A DNA stretch of 64,000 bases from an uncultured Bacteroidota bacterium. GTDB taxonomy: Bacteria; Bacteroidota; Bacteroidia; Flavobacteriales; Flavobacteriaceae. The notes below the pieces were generated by a model, which saw only the letters and a program-made list of their open reading frames with translations, was not told the DNA's origin and ran no database searches. The stretch lies in the NCBI GenBank assembly GCA_902560045.1, contig CACEKJ010000002.1, forward strand, positions 26,071 to 90,070. The letters run 5' to 3'. Made by a program: the position numbers and the translations under genes. Positions 11,837 through 43,604 of this stretch are shown piece by piece. Within the stretch, counting starts at the first letter, position 1. Every line of letters starts with the position of its first letter.

Positions 11837-12148
11837 CACAAAATATATGCCAAAATGTTAAAAATATCTTAAAATATTGAAAATATGGTAAGATAATATT
11901 TCTAAAAATCCTCTTCCAACAGATAGAAATTGAAAAATATCTGATTTATGGTACTTTAATAAATACGCAAAATTTGAGTCTTATTTTTAGTGAAATAGTA
12001 GATAAATCGGGCTTTTTGTTGAAAAATCATCATAATTTTAATTAATTATCAGTGTATAACTTAAGAATTTTAAGATTTTCACATTTTATTAACTAGTTAA
12101 GTGAGGAACATTTAATTTATTTAATGATAAATTTGTAAAAAAGATTAA

Positions 12149-12973
12149 ATGAATATTGATCAAATACCAAATATCAAAAATTTATCTTCTGATAATTTTT
12201 TCCTCATAGCAGGACCTTGTGCTATTGAGAGTGAAGAAATGGCTGTAGAAATAGCTAGTCAAATTATAAGAATTACGGATCGTTTAGAAATTCCCTTAAT
12301 CTTCAAGGGAAGTTTCAAAAAAGCAAATCGTAGTAGACTAGATAGTTTTACCGGGATTGGAGATGAAAAAGCACTCGATATTTTAAAAAAAATAGGTACT
12401 AATTTTAAGATTCCTGTCATTACCGATATTCATTCTGTTGACGATGCGAAGTTAGCCGCTAATTATGTAGATATTCTTCAAATTCCAGCTTTTTTAGTTC
12501 GGCAAACCGATATTCTTGTTGCCGCTGCCAAGACAGGAAAGGTGATAAATTTAAAAAAAGGACAATTTATGAGTCCTGAAAGCATGCAGTTTGCTGTTGG
12601 TAAAATAATTGAATCTGGTAATGAAAAAGTAATGATAACTGATAGAGGAACTATGTTTGGCTATCAAGATTTAATAGTTGATTTTAGAGGAATTCCGATT
12701 ATGAAATCCTATGCAACTACTGTTCTTGATGTGACACATTCATTACAAAAACCCAATCAAACAAGTGGAGTAACTGGTGGATTACCCGAAATGATTGAAA
12801 CAATAGCAAGGGGCGGGATTGTGAATGATATTGACGGTCTATTTATAGAAACACATTTTGATCCAACTCAGGCACTTAGCGACGGAAAAAATATGTTGCC
12901 ATTAAATGATCTTGAGGGCCTTCTGGAAAGATTAGTGAAAATAAGACAAGCAATTGTAAGTTTTAAGAAGTAA
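12149..12973 (+). CDS. kdsA: 3-deoxy-8-phosphooctulonate synthase
   Basis: FLIAGPCAIES, FKGSFKKANRSR, TDRGTMFGYQDLIVDFR, VTHSLQKP. Confidence 0.95.
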   Translation: MNIDQIPNIKNLSSDNFFLIAGPCAIESEEMAVEIASQIIRITDRLEIPLIFKGSFKKANRSRLDSFTGIGDEKALDILKKIGTNFKIPVITDIHSVDDAKLAANYVDILQIPAFLVRQTDILVAAAKTGKVINLKKGQFMSPESMQFAVGKIIESGNEKVMITDRGTMFGYQDLIVDFRGIPIMKSYATTVLDVTHSLQKPNQTSGVTGGLPEMIETIARGGIVNDIDGLFIETHFDPTQALSDGKNMLPLNDLEGLLERLVKIRQAIVSFKK

Positions 12974-12980
12974 CTTCCAT

Positions 12981-14360
12981 TTAAAGTTTGGGTTTTGAAA
13001 CTAGCCCGTATTTATCAATTAAATAGATCAAGGCAGTCATCGTTGCTGCACCTAGCTCAAGCTCTCTTTTATGAATTGTTTCAAAAGTATCATTTTCAGA
13101 GTGATGATGATCAAAATATCTTTGGGAATCTGGTTTGAGACCACTTAATACATTATCAGGGGTTTTCAATGGTCCGATGTCTGCGCCACTACCTCCTAAT
13201 TCAAAAAAGTGAATTAAATAAGGTTTAAATAATTTTTTCCAACTTTGTATTTGGGAAAAATTAGCTTCATCAGAGTCAAAATAAAAACCTCTTGGAGTAA
13301 ATGCACCTGCATCGCTTTCGAGAGCAAAAATGTGATTTTCACCTTTTCTGAAAGCTTCCTCTGCATATTTTTTACCTCCTCTAAGTCCATTTTCCTCATT
13401 CATGAACAAAACAACTCTTATACTTCTTTTAGGAGTTATTCCAGAAATTTTTAATAATCTTAAAACATCCATTGATTGTACACATCCAGCTCCATCATCA
13501 TGAGAGCCATCCCCAATATCCCAGGAATCTAAATGACCTCCTACCAAAACATATTCATCAGGAAATTCAGAGCCAGTGATTTCACCAATTACATTATGCG
13601 ATAATACATCATCCAATTGCTTACAATTTTGTTTGAAATAAAATTTGATATCATTATCCATTTTAAGCATTGAACTTAATAAATCTGCATCTTTTGTACT
13701 TATGGCTGCGGAGGGGATCCTATCCGTTACTGGAATTTCTCCATAGGTCATACTACCTGTGTGTGGCGAATTGTCAATAGCTAAATTCATTGATCTAACA
13801 ATGACAGCAGAAGCTCCGTATTCTATTGCATTAACAGCTCCTTCATATCTTTGATCCACGCAACCACCGTATGCCTTAAACGTATCAATCAGGGTCGCAT
13901 CCATCGGTCTGTTATAAAAAACAATTTTTCCTTGGATTTTATCCCTACCCAATTTTTCAAGCTCTTCAAAACTTTTTACCTCAACTACTTTTGCCTTGAG
14001 CCCTGCAGTAGGAGTTGAGATAGAACCGCCAAGAGCACATATGTTGACTTGAGTAGTTTTTCCAGGTGAAGTTTCTATGTAGGCAAATTCTGGAGCACCC
14101 CTAACCCATTTTGGAACCATTACGGGCTGAAGCCATACTTTATCAAGACCCATTAATTCCATTTCTGACTTAGTCCAGTTAACTGCTCTTTCAGCGTTCA
14201 AAGAGCCAGAGAGTCTACCCCCAATCTGATTGGATAAATAATCTAGCCATTCATAGCTTTTACCATTTGTAAGAGAATTTGTATAAATATCTCTTATCAC
14301 CTTTTCATCAGTTTGGGAATATGTACATATAGAAATTAATAAAATTATAATATACCTCAT
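12981..14360 (-). CDS. M28 family metallopeptidase (PA domain, secreted)
   Basis: GGHLDSWDIGDGSHDDGAGC, NEENGLRGG, signal peptide. Confidence 0.88.
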   Translation of the reverse strand: MRYIIILLISICTYSQTDEKVIRDIYTNSLTNGKSYEWLDYLSNQIGGRLSGSLNAERAVNWTKSEMELMGLDKVWLQPVMVPKWVRGAPEFAYIETSPGKTTQVNICALGGSISTPTAGLKAKVVEVKSFEELEKLGRDKIQGKIVFYNRPMDATLIDTFKAYGGCVDQRYEGAVNAIEYGASAVIVRSMNLAIDNSPHTGSMTYGEIPVTDRIPSAAISTKDADLLSSMLKMDNDIKFYFKQNCKQLDDVLSHNVIGEITGSEFPDEYVLVGGHLDSWDIGDGSHDDGAGCVQSMDVLRLLKISGITPKRSIRVVLFMNEENGLRGGKKYAEEAFRKGENHIFALESDAGAFTPRGFYFDSDEANFSQIQSWKKLFKPYLIHFFELGGSGADIGPLKTPDNVLSGLKPDSQRYFDHHHSENDTFETIHKRELELGAATMTALIYLIDKYGLVSKPKL

Positions 14361-38109: not shown

Positions 38110-38115
38110 AACAGA

Positions 38116-38160
38116 TGTGACCTCGGAGGGATTCAAACCCCCAACCTTCTGAGCCGTAAT
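38116..38160 (-). repeat. tRNA-Arg 3'-half fragment (outer attachment site of element 1)
   Basis: 47 bp (38114-38160) identical to 41262-41308; diverges exactly after anticodon-loop core GCCGTAAT. Confidence 0.92.
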
Positions 38161-38290
38161 TAGAAAATCTTCCCTGTAAGTAAAATTTTGAATAAATTAT
38201 CAGATTAAATATTAATCTATTAGTTTGTTTTTTTACAGGTTAAAATAGTTAGAAGGACAAAAAAATTATTCATAAACTTTCTTAAAAAAG

Positions 38291-38312
38291 TGTGTCACCA
38301 TATGTGTCACCA
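38291..38312 (+). repeat. Element 1 left arm repeats (2x TGTGTCACCA, 12-bp period)
   Basis: 38291-38300 and 38303-38312. Confidence 0.85.
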
Positions 38313-38363
38313 AAAAATAATTTTTAATTTATCAAGATATAATTAGATTTATTATATTTAATT

Positions 38364-40655
38364 ATGACTAGAGAAGATTTTTTAGAAAAAATTACAACCA
38401 CTGATAATTTAAGATCTGTCTCAAGAATAAAAAATCAAAAATACAACTTTAAGTCTGTAAGCAACTCTGAAAAAGATGAGTTAATAAATCAAGGATGGGA
38501 AATCGACAGAGAAAATGTTAACTCCGTCAGACTAAAAAAACCCAAATTACATTCGGTAATATTTGAAAATAAAGTTTGGTCAGTATTTCAAAAAATGGGA
38601 TACAGCAGATTAAATATTGACAATACATTTAAAATTCCATATTCAAATAACCAAGATATACCTCCGAGACAAATCGATGTTTTTTGTTTTGATGATGATA
38701 CAGCCATAGTAATTGAATGTAAAAGTTCCGAATCCAGAAGACCCAGACCACTTCAAACAATCATAAATGACTTTGCAAATATTCGAGATGGAATAATAAG
38801 GTATTTAAATAGCATTTTTGAAACCAGAAAAAAAGTTAAATTAATTTTAGCTACTAATAATATAGTTGTTTCTGAAAATGATGTAAATAGAATTAAAGAA
38901 AATAACATCCTGTTATTTACACAAGATGATATCAATTATTACGATCAACTGTCTTCTCATTTAGGAGAGGCTTCAAAATATCAATTATTTGGAAGAATAT
39001 TTTCAGGTCAATCTATACCTTCTTTAAAAAATAAAGTTCCTGCAATAAGAGGTAAAATGGGTGGTCATACTTATTATTCATTTTCAATTCAGCCAGAAAA
39101 ATTACTTAAACTTTCTTACATATTACATAATAATACAACCAGTGAAGAAGTAGTTGGAACTTATCAGAGAATGGTAAATAAAAAAAGAATTTCAGACATT
39201 GGTGCCTTTTTAGATTCAAATGATGGAGGTTCTGGATTTTTTCCTAATTCGATTATTGTGAATTTTGACACCAGTGGAAGAAATTTAGTTTTTGATAAAA
39301 TATCATCCGATCACGACGTTGAAGATTGTTCAGTTGGTGTTCTAAAACTTCCAGATAAATTTAGATCTGCATTTATTATTGACGGACAACATAGACTTTA
39401 TGGGTATTCAAAAAGTGAATGGAAATCAAAACATACAATTCCTGTAGTGGCATTTGAAAATCTTCCTGTTGAAAATCAAGTTGATATGTTTGTAAATATC
39501 AATCACAAACAGAAATCTGTTTCACAAAATTTATTGACAACTATTAAAGCTGAACTACATTGGAACTCGCCAATTTATAATAATGCAATTTTTGCAGTAA
39601 TGGCTAGATTATTAATGGAGTTATCTAAAGATAATTCTAGTCCGCTATATGGACGAATAAAGCTTGGGGAAAACAAAAAATCAGATTTGGTTAATATTAC
39701 GTTAGACTATATTATAAGTTACGGATTCAAAAAAACTAATTTTTTTGCTAAGATTTCCAGAAATAGATTGGTGTCTACTGGTCATTTATGGGTTGATGAT
39801 TATTCAAGAATGCTTATTAAAGCAAAAAAGTTTTTTATTCTTATTTTCAAATATATAAAAGAAAAAAGCGAACAAAACTGGGATTTGGGTAGTTCTGGAG
39901 GAGGTTTTATTTCGATGAATATCGGAATTGCTTCAGTTATTCGATTAGTTGATTCTGTAATTAAATTAGATTCTTTATCAAATAACTCACAAATACAAAC
40001 CAAATCTGCAGAGGACATATTTGATATTTGTAAACCGAAGCTAGAACATCTTTCAAATTATATTAACGGCCTAAGTATTTCAGAGATACAAAATTTCAGA
40101 AGTGCCGGTACAGGTGGTCAAGGAAGGGATAATGTTTATAGAGAATTTCAAAACTATATATATCAAAATGATCCAAATTTTAATCCTGATGGCCTACAAG
40201 AATGGATAAGAAATAATTCAGGTGAATTTAATGATTCTGGTACAGAAATGGTAAGAGACTTAGAGCTGAAAATTTTTGATACAGTAAAATCTAAAATCAT
40301 TGAAAAATATAATTTTGGGGCAGAATGGTTACGTCCTGAGGCTATACCTAGAGGTGTTTTAAGTAAAACCTATGAGATGTATAATGAACAAGGACAAAGA
40401 GAGCCACAAGAAAATTTCTTAGACCTAAGCAGCTATAAATCTATTATAGAAAAAGGTGATAACTGGGCAAGTTGTTTTAAAGAGATTTTTACAGACCCAA
40501 GGATTGTCGGAAGCGCAAATAAGGAAAGATCACTTGAATGGATGCTTAAACTAAATGAAATTAGAAGAAAAACTGCTCATCCCACCAGAGCACCAATAAC
40601 TCCTGATGAAAACGATTTCTTAATTTTCTTAAAAAGCTGGTTAATTGATGAGTGA
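38364..40655 (+). CDS. Multidomain PD-(D/E)xK + DGQHR (DndB/DpdB-like) + HEPN-like protein
   Basis: N-term RQIDVF-x-ECK (D105...E118xK120); FIIDGQHRLYGYSK at 39381; C-term LNEIRRKTAHP (Rx4H) at ~40563-40580. Confidence 0.85.
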   Translation: MTREDFLEKITTTDNLRSVSRIKNQKYNFKSVSNSEKDELINQGWEIDRENVNSVRLKKPKLHSVIFENKVWSVFQKMGYSRLNIDNTFKIPYSNNQDIPPRQIDVFCFDDDTAIVIECKSSESRRPRPLQTIINDFANIRDGIIRYLNSIFETRKKVKLILATNNIVVSENDVNRIKENNILLFTQDDINYYDQLSSHLGEASKYQLFGRIFSGQSIPSLKNKVPAIRGKMGGHTYYSFSIQPEKLLKLSYILHNNTTSEEVVGTYQRMVNKKRISDIGAFLDSNDGGSGFFPNSIIVNFDTSGRNLVFDKISSDHDVEDCSVGVLKLPDKFRSAFIIDGQHRLYGYSKSEWKSKHTIPVVAFENLPVENQVDMFVNINHKQKSVSQNLLTTIKAELHWNSPIYNNAIFAVMARLLMELSKDNSSPLYGRIKLGENKKSDLVNITLDYIISYGFKKTNFFAKISRNRLVSTGHLWVDDYSRMLIKAKKFFILIFKYIKEKSEQNWDLGSSGGGFISMNIGIASVIRLVDSVIKLDSLSNNSQIQTKSAEDIFDICKPKLEHLSNYINGLSISEIQNFRSAGTGGQGRDNVYREFQNYIYQNDPNFNPDGLQEWIRNNSGEFNDSGTEMVRDLELKIFDTVKSKIIEKYNFGAEWLRPEAIPRGVLSKTYEMYNEQGQREPQENFLDLSSYKSIIEKGDNWASCFKEIFTDPRIVGSANKERSLEWMLKLNEIRRKTAHPTRAPITPDENDFLIFLKSWLIDE

Positions 40656-41103
40656 CATTATAATATTTGATCTTGATGGAACAATTGCATTAATTGATAA
40701 AAGAAGAGAACTAAGTACTAAGAAAGATTATAAAATTGATTGGGATATTTTTTTTGATCCAAAAAATATTAAACTTGACAAACCTAATTACCCTGTAATT
40801 GAATTATTAAAGCTATTAAAATCAAAAGGATTTAAAATTTTTATTCTTAGTGGTAGATTAAATACAACAAAAGAAGCAACCTTAGAATGGTTGCACAAAA
40901 ATGATATTGAATTTGACCAAATAAAAATGAGAAAAAATACTATTAAAGGTAAATATATTTCTGATGTTGAACTAAAGGAAAAATGGATGACGGAAATTGG
41001 AAAAGAAAATATTTTTTGTGTATTTGACGATAGAAATGCTCTAGTTGAAATGTGGAGAAGAAATGGACTTACCTGCTTTCAAGTAGCAGATGGAAATTTT
41101 TAG
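40648..41103 (+). CDS. HAD-superfamily phosphatase resembling polynucleotide kinase 3'-phosphatase domain
   Basis: IIFDLDGTIALIDKR, FILSGRLNTTKEATLEWL, FCVFDDRNALVEMWRRNGLTCFQVADG; ATG overlaps upstream stop by 8 bp. Confidence 0.8.
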   Translation: MSDIIIFDLDGTIALIDKRRELSTKKDYKIDWDIFFDPKNIKLDKPNYPVIELLKLLKSKGFKIFILSGRLNTTKEATLEWLHKNDIEFDQIKMRKNTIKGKYISDVELKEKWMTEIGKENIFCVFDDRNALVEMWRRNGLTCFQVADGNF

Positions 41104-41144
41104 AAGTTAGCTTATTTAATTATTCTTCTAAATACTTCAAGCTG

Positions 41145-41224
41145 TGTGTCACCAAATGTGTCACCAATTAGGAAAATAAATTTGAAAATTAAAAAAACAA
41201 AAAATAGACTAATTTGTGTCACCA
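41145..41224 (+). repeat. Element 1 right arm repeats (3x TGTGTCACCA)
   Basis: 41145-41154, 41157-41166 (12-bp period), 41215-41224. Confidence 0.85.
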
Positions 41225-41230
41225 AAAAAG

Positions 41231-41259
41231 AAAGACCCACTACAAAAAGCGAGTCTTTA
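41231..41259 (-). terminator. Element-supplied tRNA-Arg terminator copy
   Basis: AAAGACCCACT...AGCGAGTCTTT imperfect hairpin, diverged copy of 38078-38109. Confidence 0.6.
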
Positions 41260-41265
41260 CTGATG

Positions 41266-41339
41266 TGACCTCGGAGGGATTCAAACCCCCAACCTTCTGA
41301 GCCGTAATCAGATGCACTATTCAGTTATGCTACGAGGCC
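41266..41339 (-). tRNA. tRNA-Arg(ACG), intact
   Basis: GGCCTCG acceptor paired with CGAGGTC; anticodon arm TCTGA-TTACGGC-TCAGA (ACG); T-arm GGGGG-TTTGAAT-CCCTC. Confidence 0.95.
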
Positions 41340-41384
41340 GTTATATTCTTAAAATTGCTACTTTGTAAATCTCTTAAAAAATAC

Positions 41385-41408
41385 GTGGGTACAACGTGGG
41401 GTACAACG
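41385..41408 (+). repeat. Element 2 left arm repeats (GTGGGTACAACGTGGGGTACAACG)
   Basis: GGGTACAACG at 41387 and 41399. Confidence 0.85.
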
Positions 41409-41525
41409 ACTATATTTCTTAGGCTCTTTTACAGAGTGCAACGTGTCTGCAAATATATCTTTATTTTTTTTAAACTTAAAAGAGAATATCCCTATGAGTT
41501 AAAAAAAATTCATAGGTTTATTGTA

Positions 41526-42251
41526 ATGAAATTTGCATTACATAATGGTGAGAGAAAAGAAGCTGAAATTAACTTAAAAGGTGCTGTATGCCAAGTATGT
41601 AAGGCAGAAGTAATTGCGAAATGTGGTGATGTGAAAATTCATCATTGGGCTCACAAAAGTAAAAGAAAATGTGACCATTGGTGGGAAAATGAAACTAAAT
41701 GGCATAGAGACTGGAAAAATCAGTTTTCAAAAGATTGGCAAGAAGTTGTACATTCTTCAGAAACCGGAGAGCGACATATTGCAGATATAAAAACACCAAA
41801 GGGTTTAGTAGTAGAATTTCAGCACTCCCCTATTAAACCAGAAGAAATACTTGCAAGAAATACTTTTTATAAAAACATAATATGGATAGTCGATGGTAAA
41901 AGGAGAAAATATGATGAAAAAAAGTTTAAAGAAGTAATAGACCCTACATCAGGAGCGTGGGAGTTTTGGTATTATTCACCATTATTAAGGGATTGGTCTC
42001 GTATTCAAAAACCTGTATTTTTTGATTTTGGAGGGCCAAAATTATACGTGGTGTTTGAGGGTGAGATTAAAGATTTTGATAAAGTGGATTTTATTGAAGC
42101 TGTAAAAATGGGTGGTAATGGTAAAACATTGTTACATCTATTAAAAGAGAAAACTAAAATAGCTAAGATTAAAGATGAATACGTTAGGAATTCCATCAAA
42201 GAAAAGAAAGAAAAAAGAACATTTGCTAGTGTAAGAAAAAGAGGATATTGA
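41526..42251 (+). CDS. CoiA-like nuclease (competence protein CoiA-like family)
   Basis: MKFALHNGERKEAE start; VCQVCKAEV..HHWAHKS Zn-binding-like motif; HIADIKTPKGLVVEFQHS (D...ExQ). Start trimmed from ORF-track 41355. Confidence 0.8.
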   Translation: MKFALHNGERKEAEINLKGAVCQVCKAEVIAKCGDVKIHHWAHKSKRKCDHWWENETKWHRDWKNQFSKDWQEVVHSSETGERHIADIKTPKGLVVEFQHSPIKPEEILARNTFYKNIIWIVDGKRRKYDEKKFKEVIDPTSGAWEFWYYSPLLRDWSRIQKPVFFDFGGPKLYVVFEGEIKDFDKVDFIEAVKMGGNGKTLLHLLKEKTKIAKIKDEYVRNSIKEKKEKRTFASVRKRGY

Positions 42252-42280
42252 TGTTAAGGATTTAAATGAAGAAGATATGC

Positions 42281-43444
42281 TTATGATTTAGACGGGTTAA
42301 AGTCGAAAGGATGTTCTTTGTATTCATTAGTTCTTTTTCCGTCTTTGTATTTGACTATTTTTTTAGGTTTGCCATCGTCAAAAGTTTCAATAATCTCATA
42401 ACCATTAAAAATCTTCTTTTCTTCACCAATATATGTCAGCTCATCAATAATTGTTAGGGCTTCTTTTGGAAAAGCATATTGTTCATTATTATTTTTAACA
42501 TTGCTAAGAGTTTTTTCTATAGATTTTTTTGTTTCCCAAAATTTCTCAAATTCTTTTTCAGATTTCCCTGTAGATGCTATATACTGTTCTTTAAAATTCT
42601 CTTTTATCAATCCGTCTATTAATACTGTGTCATCTAATTTTCCTGAAAAAAGCCTTAGAGTTGATGCATATTTTTCAAACATAAATCTATTAATACAAAT
42701 CAAATTTGGCCTATAGTTACTTTCATTTTTATTTGCGGGAAGCGTTACAAACTCAATTCTTTCCCCCCTTTTTATCTTTTCCAATCTTTCCTCATTTTTT
42801 ATCTTCGCCAATCTATCCTCAATAAGTTTCTTTTTAGTGTAATATTTAATTATTTGCTCAACGTTTAAAGAAACACCTTGTTCTGAAAACCATTTTTGAT
42901 TAAATATATCATAGTTTTTATTTGACCTACCATTTATTGATTCAATTGTACCCACCTTAATTGTATTACTACCATTAATAGAGAGATAATGGTCTTTCGT
43001 TAAATACCCCGACAAACTAAAATCATCTTCATAGGCGGCGCTTATTATAATTCCGGTTGAAGATTCTTTAACAATTCTCGAAACACCATCGTCACAATCT
43101 ACTACTTTTTCTTTGTGTAATTTTGCATACTTAGGGTCAACTTTAAGACGCTCTATATGTTTTTGATGTTTTAGTTTTTCTTCTTTTTTTATTGCTTTTA
43201 TTTTTTCTCTTTTTTTATTTTCTTTTTTTTCTACCTCTCCTTCATAATAAACAAGAAATGCAATAAGAAGCAATATTGAACCTATGATATAAAATCCATT
43301 GTACATTAAGTAAGCAGTTAGAATTATAAAACCTGAAAAAATAATCAACCAATATACCAATCTCTTTTTCCTTGTTCTATATTCTTCTATTTTTTTCTTT
43401 TCTTCTTTGGTCTTCTCCCATTTCTCAATGTCCTTGTTTTTCAT
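42281..43444 (-). CDS. Uncharacterised protein with two N-terminal TM helices
   Basis: 387 aa intact ORF, charged coiled N-terminus, two TM segments, no recognised domain. Confidence 0.6.
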   Translation of the reverse strand: MKNKDIEKWEKTKEEKKKIEEYRTRKKRLVYWLIIFSGFIILTAYLMYNGFYIIGSILLLIAFLVYYEGEVEKKENKKREKIKAIKKEEKLKHQKHIERLKVDPKYAKLHKEKVVDCDDGVSRIVKESSTGIIISAAYEDDFSLSGYLTKDHYLSINGSNTIKVGTIESINGRSNKNYDIFNQKWFSEQGVSLNVEQIIKYYTKKKLIEDRLAKIKNEERLEKIKRGERIEFVTLPANKNESNYRPNLICINRFMFEKYASTLRLFSGKLDDTVLIDGLIKENFKEQYIASTGKSEKEFEKFWETKKSIEKTLSNVKNNNEQYAFPKEALTIIDELTYIGEEKKIFNGYEIIETFDDGKPKKIVKYKDGKRTNEYKEHPFDFNPSKS

Positions 43445-43472
43445 ACCTACAATTTACAATTATTTTAAATGT

Positions 43473-43494
43473 GGGTACAACCAAGGGTACAACG
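43473..43494 (+). repeat. Element 2 right arm repeats (2x GGGTACAAC, 12-bp period)
   Basis: GGGTACAACC 43473-43482, GGGTACAACG 43485-43494. Confidence 0.85.
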
Positions 43495-43565
43495 AAAATC
43501 AGTTTATCTGATAAATACTCTGTAAAGTTGATATTGTAAAAAAACCACTAATCTGTAGGTTGGGT

Positions 43566-43604
43566 GCCGTAATCAGATGCACTATTCAGTTATGCTACGA
43601 GGCC
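43566..43604 (-). repeat. tRNA-Arg 5'-half fragment (outer attachment site of element 2)
   Basis: 39-bp identity to 41301-41339; continues into non-tRNA sequence at the anticodon loop. Confidence 0.92.

Follow-up and report, generated by a model that had tools for sequence, protein, structure and literature searches.

An integrase-less element with paired arm-like repeats on the 5' side of tRNA-Arg(ACG) in a flavobacterial genome, and its counterparts in sister species

Genomic islands without an integrase gene are usually dismissed as decayed and are discarded by island-finding programs. A described class of this kind is that of the cis-mobilizable elements or CIMEs (Pavlovic 2004, reviewed in PMC5704250), in which the integration and transfer genes have been lost and attL and attR are kept (PMC5704250). 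In the Islander catalogue, candidates without an integrase were rejected, and a 5' fragment, which is the configuration of the element described here, was left by only 159 of 3919 islands (PMC4383910); integrase-less cassette arrays, in turn, have been named CALIN (PMC11389934). The element considered here (Element 2, E2), located in the window (the whole 64-kb stretch of DNA that was analysed), is a real, integrase-less and tRNA-anchored element.

E2 (41340..43565; 2226 bp between two copies of a tRNA 5' half, with a size of ~2.27 kb) is integrated 5' of the single-copy gene for tRNA-Arg(ACG), which is intact at 41265..41339 on the minus strand and is the only full-length copy found in the examined 1.16 Mb of its own genome. 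Its "core" is a perfect 39-bp duplicate of the tRNA 5' half (39/39 identical, both copies on the minus strand): the inner copy, on the att core side of E2, lies at 41301-41339, while the displaced original 5' half marks the outer end at 43566-43604, the place to which E2 would have pushed it. An intact tDNA and a displaced fragment are therefore found in the orientation and configuration expected of an island. A second integrase-less element (Element 1, E1; 38165..41264) occupies the 3' side of the same tRNA and carries at its outer end the displaced original 3' half (38115..38164, minus strand), so that the order along the tRNA strand is displaced 5' half (43604-43566), E2, tRNA (41339-41265), E1 and displaced 3' half (38164-38115). 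The homology of E1 spans the tRNA 3' half and that of E2 the 5' half; on comparison, the sole mismatch-free stretch common to all three tRNA copies is GCCGTAAT (41301..41308), the putative strand-exchange region, which includes the 7-nt anticodon loop. Both elements thus seem to recombine within the loop and to restore opposite halves of the tRNA, which bears out the anticodon-loop target assigned to both of them by a sequence-only reading of this DNA; 7 nt is also the size of the tyrosine-recombinase overlap (PMC8371274). By insertion logic, the working tRNA-Arg(ACG) would be a chimera, with its 5' half from E2 and its 3' half from E1. An intact tRNA-Arg(ACG) was also observed beside an integrase-family ORF in a 63.7-kb viral contig (L157, 7184-8531), and because of this pairing the gene is regarded as a prophage site too.

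The corresponding site is empty in relatives. In genomes G293 and G294 of the same genus, both sides are free and a single tRNA-Arg is immediately flanked by the same two genes, at 67 and 34 bp from them in G293; in the window these two genes are parted by E1 and E2, and lie 59 and 33 bp outside them. The 5' side carries no insertion in G292, G305 and G306. Elements marked by 5'-half fragments are present in G304, G307, G301 and G302, and 3'-half fragments were found in G291 and, weakly, in G298.

Within E2, the near repeat pair GGGTACAACGTG-GGGTACAACG occupies 41387..41408 and the far pair GGGTACAACCAA-GGGTACAACG occupies 43473..43494, both on the plus strand, the single arms being GGGTACAACG at 41387, 41399 and 43485 and GGGTACAACC at 43473. 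The 9-mer GGGTACAAC has four copies in the window against 0.12 expected, a number reached in none of 100 shuffles; its pairs (41387/41399 and 43473/43485) stand exactly where the sequence-only reading had placed them, with an exact 12-bp period, and its estimate of ~75 bp inside the core was right, since the distances measured inwards from the crossover in the anticodon loop (41301-41308 / 43566-43573) are 78 and 72 bp. The near pair starts 48 bp from the tRNA end. With at most two mismatches allowed, the GGGTACAAC pair was found only at the two places in E2 in 1.16 Mb of the own genome, and the reversed control pattern gave no match in the same 1.16 Mb. The arms agree with one another in 4/4 cases in E2 and in 3/4 in the element of G304. 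The GGGTACAAC repeats are most likely the arm-type sites of E2 for a tyrosine integrase.

As with arm sites of the lambda type, repeat pairs adjoin integrase genes in related loci. In 80 loci holding the exact GGGTACAAC pair, an integrase ORF was found within 300 bp in 25 (6.3 expected) and a tRNA or tmRNA within 300 bp in 14 (3.0 expected), both expected counts being derived from positions drawn at random within these loci. Reichenbachiella faecimaris has the pair in the interval that separates an integrase gene from tRNA-Arg(ACG) itself, although the element there is on the 3' side of the tRNA, unlike the 5'-side E2. The expectation that the motif would stand beside tyrosine-integrase genes elsewhere was thus confirmed, and the earlier reading, which was to be abandoned if the repeat had no association with tRNA-adjacent insertions in other genomes, is not refuted, given the association with both. 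The idea that GGGTACAAC marks a single integrase family was nevertheless rejected, because very different integrases use it: it occurs with Bacteroidota Arm-DNA-bind_5 integrases and with unrelated ones in Selenomonas and Sphingomonas loci. Nor was the proposed covariation between arm sequence and integrase N-terminal domain found (30 integrases, 411 pairs, partial r = -0.04, permutation p = 0.66), so that the repeat alone cannot name the integrase.

Integrase genes are carried by two 5'-side elements, those of G301 and G302, in both cases at the 5'-half end. The arms of the G301 element are GTGCCTAAC, the arm of the integrase-less element of G304; those of the G302 element are GTTTACAAC at both ends, matching G290 and G291. 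Both integrases have a SAM-like domain, accompanied by Arm-DNA-bind_5 in G301, and were missed by the Pfam catalytic model; in their alignment, the ARK[ST]F box, the LxG[RH] box and the C-terminal tyrosine are kept. The GTTTACAAC-armed 5'-side tRNA-Arg elements (L124 in G302, L122 in G291, L135 in G290) encode a small lipoprotein, a ~60-100-aa protein of unknown family, or both, and one of them may be a prophage or island with its integrase on contig L123. None of the integrases found in this genus has GGGTACAAC arms, the own genome being only about 64% complete; in the latter, the only candidates found are XerC/D-like genes, a tRNA-Asn integrase (contig C8) and a conserved divergent homologue (contig C10), none of them GGGTACAAC-armed. 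Among viral sequences, no relative was found of the integrases of G301, G302, R. faecimaris and C8. The divergent tyrosine-recombinase homologue (~460 aa; contig C10 of G000, 11991-13091, L140; loci L137-L150) is present in 14 of the 21 genomes of the genus, and its catalytic arginine box and tyrosine appear lost in L137 and L140.

Taken together, E2 is very probably a small non-autonomous element that was integrated from the 5' side by a lambda-type arm-binding tyrosine integrase, with GGGTACAAC as its arm sites. An integrase supplied in trans would use its N-terminal domain to bind the GGGTACAAC pairs and its catalytic part to cut at the 7-bp anticodon-loop core; E2 was presumably moved in this way, and may be mobile at present, although neither a circular form nor a joined attP was observed. 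Integration would supply a new tRNA 5' half and, because of this, presumably a new promoter.

The relatives of E2 in sister species add to this picture. In E2, G304 and G307 alike, exactly 48 bp separate the tRNA from the start of the arm pair, yet the sequence standing at this offset is GGGTACAAC in E2, GTGCCTAAC in G304 and GTGTCCAAC in G307. Positions 18-118 of E2 align with those of the G304 element at the same coordinates with 73% identity; the elements of G304 and G307 are 75% identical over their first 156 bp and 94% over their last 110 bp, while their interiors are unrelated, a trypsin-like protein being encoded in one and a PQQ-repeat secreted protein in the other. A degenerate arm-pair pattern of the 5' family has nine matches in 21 same-genus genomes, eight of which are at tRNA-Arg(ACG) elements, against one match for the reversed control in the same 21 genomes. 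Since the near and far arms of G307 differ from each other, not every element need be active. E2, G304 and G307 provide a natural series for studying how the arm specificity of an integrase may change at a constant core, spacing and target.

The cargo of E2 appears cassette-like, consisting of a CoiA-like gene and of a 387-aa gene that ends in a 30-bp repeat. The CoiA-like protein (41526..42251, plus strand; CoiA_N E=4e-8, CoiA nuclease domain E=4e-5) has no match in other genomes of the genus; the 387-aa protein (42281..43444, minus strand) has a hydrophobic segment and no confident family. The start of the latter gene and its promoter-like leader lie at 43437..43469 on the minus strand, and this 33-bp leader is 97% identical to three leaders in the cassette region of contig C8 of the own genome. 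The 30-bp repeat (..DVKDLNEEDMLMI followed by a stop; 42262..42291, plus strand) differs by two mismatches from the consensus and corresponds to the 3' end of an L003-type integrase, the reference 3' end being that of the C8 (tRNA-Asn) integrase family (..VEDLKEEDMPMI..). The stop codon of the 387-aa gene lies inside it, and that of the trypsin gene of G304 inside or at the edge of the repeat, which is degenerate in G304; G307 carries it at the matching place with no mismatch. At least two copies were found in 7 of the 14 loci fetched for the C8-type integrase family, whereas the reversed-sequence control gave no match in these 14 loci; copies are five in G478, all in the same orientation, and four in G474. 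The C8 integrase, to which the integrases of these arrays are related, matches PF00589. In 13 copies, those of E2 and G307 included, conservation did not extend past the 30 bp into the flanks, and the repeat was not found in viral contigs.

Besides the window (42262-42291), a ~30-bp integrase 3'-end tract resembling a cassette boundary was observed between small genes in L233, L234, L235, L236 and L237; islands with such a tract occur in several flavobacterial genera, and some opposite-strand genes terminate within it. Many small genes begin with a near-identical signal peptide, MKKLILLLFIP.. (L237 10400-16150, L236 13800-18500, L233 5700-8500), and this start is conserved in the DNA ahead of unrelated bodies. 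Over 1497 bp, the cargo gene of G307 shares 97% identity with a gene located ~2.5 kb from a C8-family integrase in G297. The leaders shared by E2 and C8 and the cargo shared by G307 and G297 suggest a cassette-like gene pool. As a tentative possibility, and a rather doubtful one, E2 could have branched off, with one cassette, from an integron-like system of marine flavobacteria that has not been described before. In such a system, the last ~30 bp of a tRNA-targeting integrase gene (..KEEDMPMI and stop) would be the putative cassette site, leader-bearing genes would be arrayed there with a copy of the site bounding each of them, and single cassettes would travel integrase-free between interchangeable att ends with swappable arms. 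An alternative for the repeated tracts would be tandem accretion with deletions; compare G297, where a tRNA-Asn 3' half lies between two copies of the repeat.

Among the other explanations of E2, the one that survives best, although it is unlikely, is that the element is what decay has left of a single larger island or prophage, now immobile, as in a classical CIME. Such a history would agree with the loss of genes described for CIMEs: the only piece of an integrase in E2 is the tail of 13-16 codons left at 42262-42291, although no remnant of a conjugation or phage gene was recognised in it. G307, where the near arms do not match the far ones and an adjacent reading frame is truncated, also fits decay. 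However, all four arms of E2 are intact, nearly all the DNA between its ends consists of intact genes, and the integrase-tail tract is a conserved 30-bp unit that is repeated elsewhere; moreover, three sister elements of ~2 kb share att ends and yet hold unrelated, intact cargo, which speaks against a single decay. The recurrence of E2-like elements with swapped arms and cargo exceeds what simple decay predicts. Rather, the occurrence at one site of elements with homologous ends, concertedly changed arms and unrelated cargo suggests a recurrent mobile unit that is cassette-like and has no integrase.

It is improbable that E1 and E2 belong to a single integrase system and differ by an arm swap, which was the substance of the earlier proposal of two related integrase specificities with the same design and a different repeat. 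The two elements do share the tRNA, the 7-8-bp crossover region and, as had been noted, the 12-bp arm period: the far pair of E1 (TGTGTCACC, 38291..38312, plus strand) and its near pair (TGTGTCACC, 41145..41167, plus strand, with one further single copy at about 41213) both have it. Pairs with a period of 11 or 12 are, however, found upstream in 5 and 6 of 30 Bacteroidota arm-domain integrase loci, against 0-2 of the same 30 for each of the other periods between 9 and 30; a period of 11-12 bp is a class feature of Bacteroidota arm-domain integrases, hence it says little about relatedness and is no proof of an integrase common to E1 and E2. The single arm-swapped system was rejected because ends and insertion side differ: the elements enter from opposite sides and carry opposite tRNA fragments (3' and 5', respectively), their ends are not homologous, and the ends of E1 align instead with the 3'-side element of G291 (74% and 77%). 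Neither element, furthermore, encodes an integrase. What stands of the proposal are the arm-like repeats, the shared target and the association with integrases and tRNAs; the true series of equal geometry and different repeat is E2/G304/G307. The cargo of E1 (a DndB/DpdB-like gene, 38364-40655, and a PNKP-phosphatase-like gene, 40645-41103) differs from that of the G291 element, which encodes a GmrSD-type protein (PADLOC HEC-06/Orf5-like), and in both it is of a defence type. A class-wide search detected the arms of E1 in no genome other than the own one; the TGTGTCACC pair occurs in 21 viral contigs, with a recognised integrase close by in only one.

An operator role of the GGGTACAAC pairs, in which they would serve a regulator of the neighbouring genes or of the tRNA, might be suggested by the far pair, located immediately upstream of where the 387-aa gene begins, and by the near pair, upstream of the tRNA. 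Such a role is most improbable, since the geometry of the pairs to the recombination core is fixed at both ends, the same pairs adjoin integrase genes in unrelated genomes, and analogous pairs are present in the integrase-bearing elements of this tRNA.

With respect to known systems, E2 as a non-autonomous element is of the CIME type because it lacks an integrase: like CIMEs, it keeps attL and attR at its ends, has neither integrase nor transfer genes and stands in tandem with another element at the same target gene; it differs in that several species have the ~2-kb form, its ends conserved and its cargo exchanged, in its entry from the tRNA 5' side and in its internal integrase-tail repeat. 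With the islands of the Islander catalogue (PMC4383910) it shares ends marked by tDNA and displaced fragment and a crossover in the anticodon loop, while the integrase gene expected inside an Islander-type island is absent from it. Paired direct repeats flanking the att core are common to E2 and to the arm-type sites of lambda-like integrases, although sequence and period are here of the Bacteroidota type and the element's own integrase is absent. Tycheposons, compared here through secondary accounts, are likewise tRNA-anchored cargo elements of streamlined aquatic bacteria, but they are described there as carrying a tyrosine recombinase and as being 4-200 kb long (as quoted in PMC10872708). 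The tail-repeat arrays, finally, resemble CALIN and integron cassettes in that single genes are bounded by a recurring short site, with the integrase absent or at one end; the site, however, is here the integrase gene's own 3' end (~30 bp), the genes have promoter-like leaders of their own, and, compared with the IntI, attI and structured attC of integrons and CALIN, the tail repeat is described here as a sequence tract. If it were a recombination site, it would represent a second tyrosine-recombinase route to gene arrays besides integrons.
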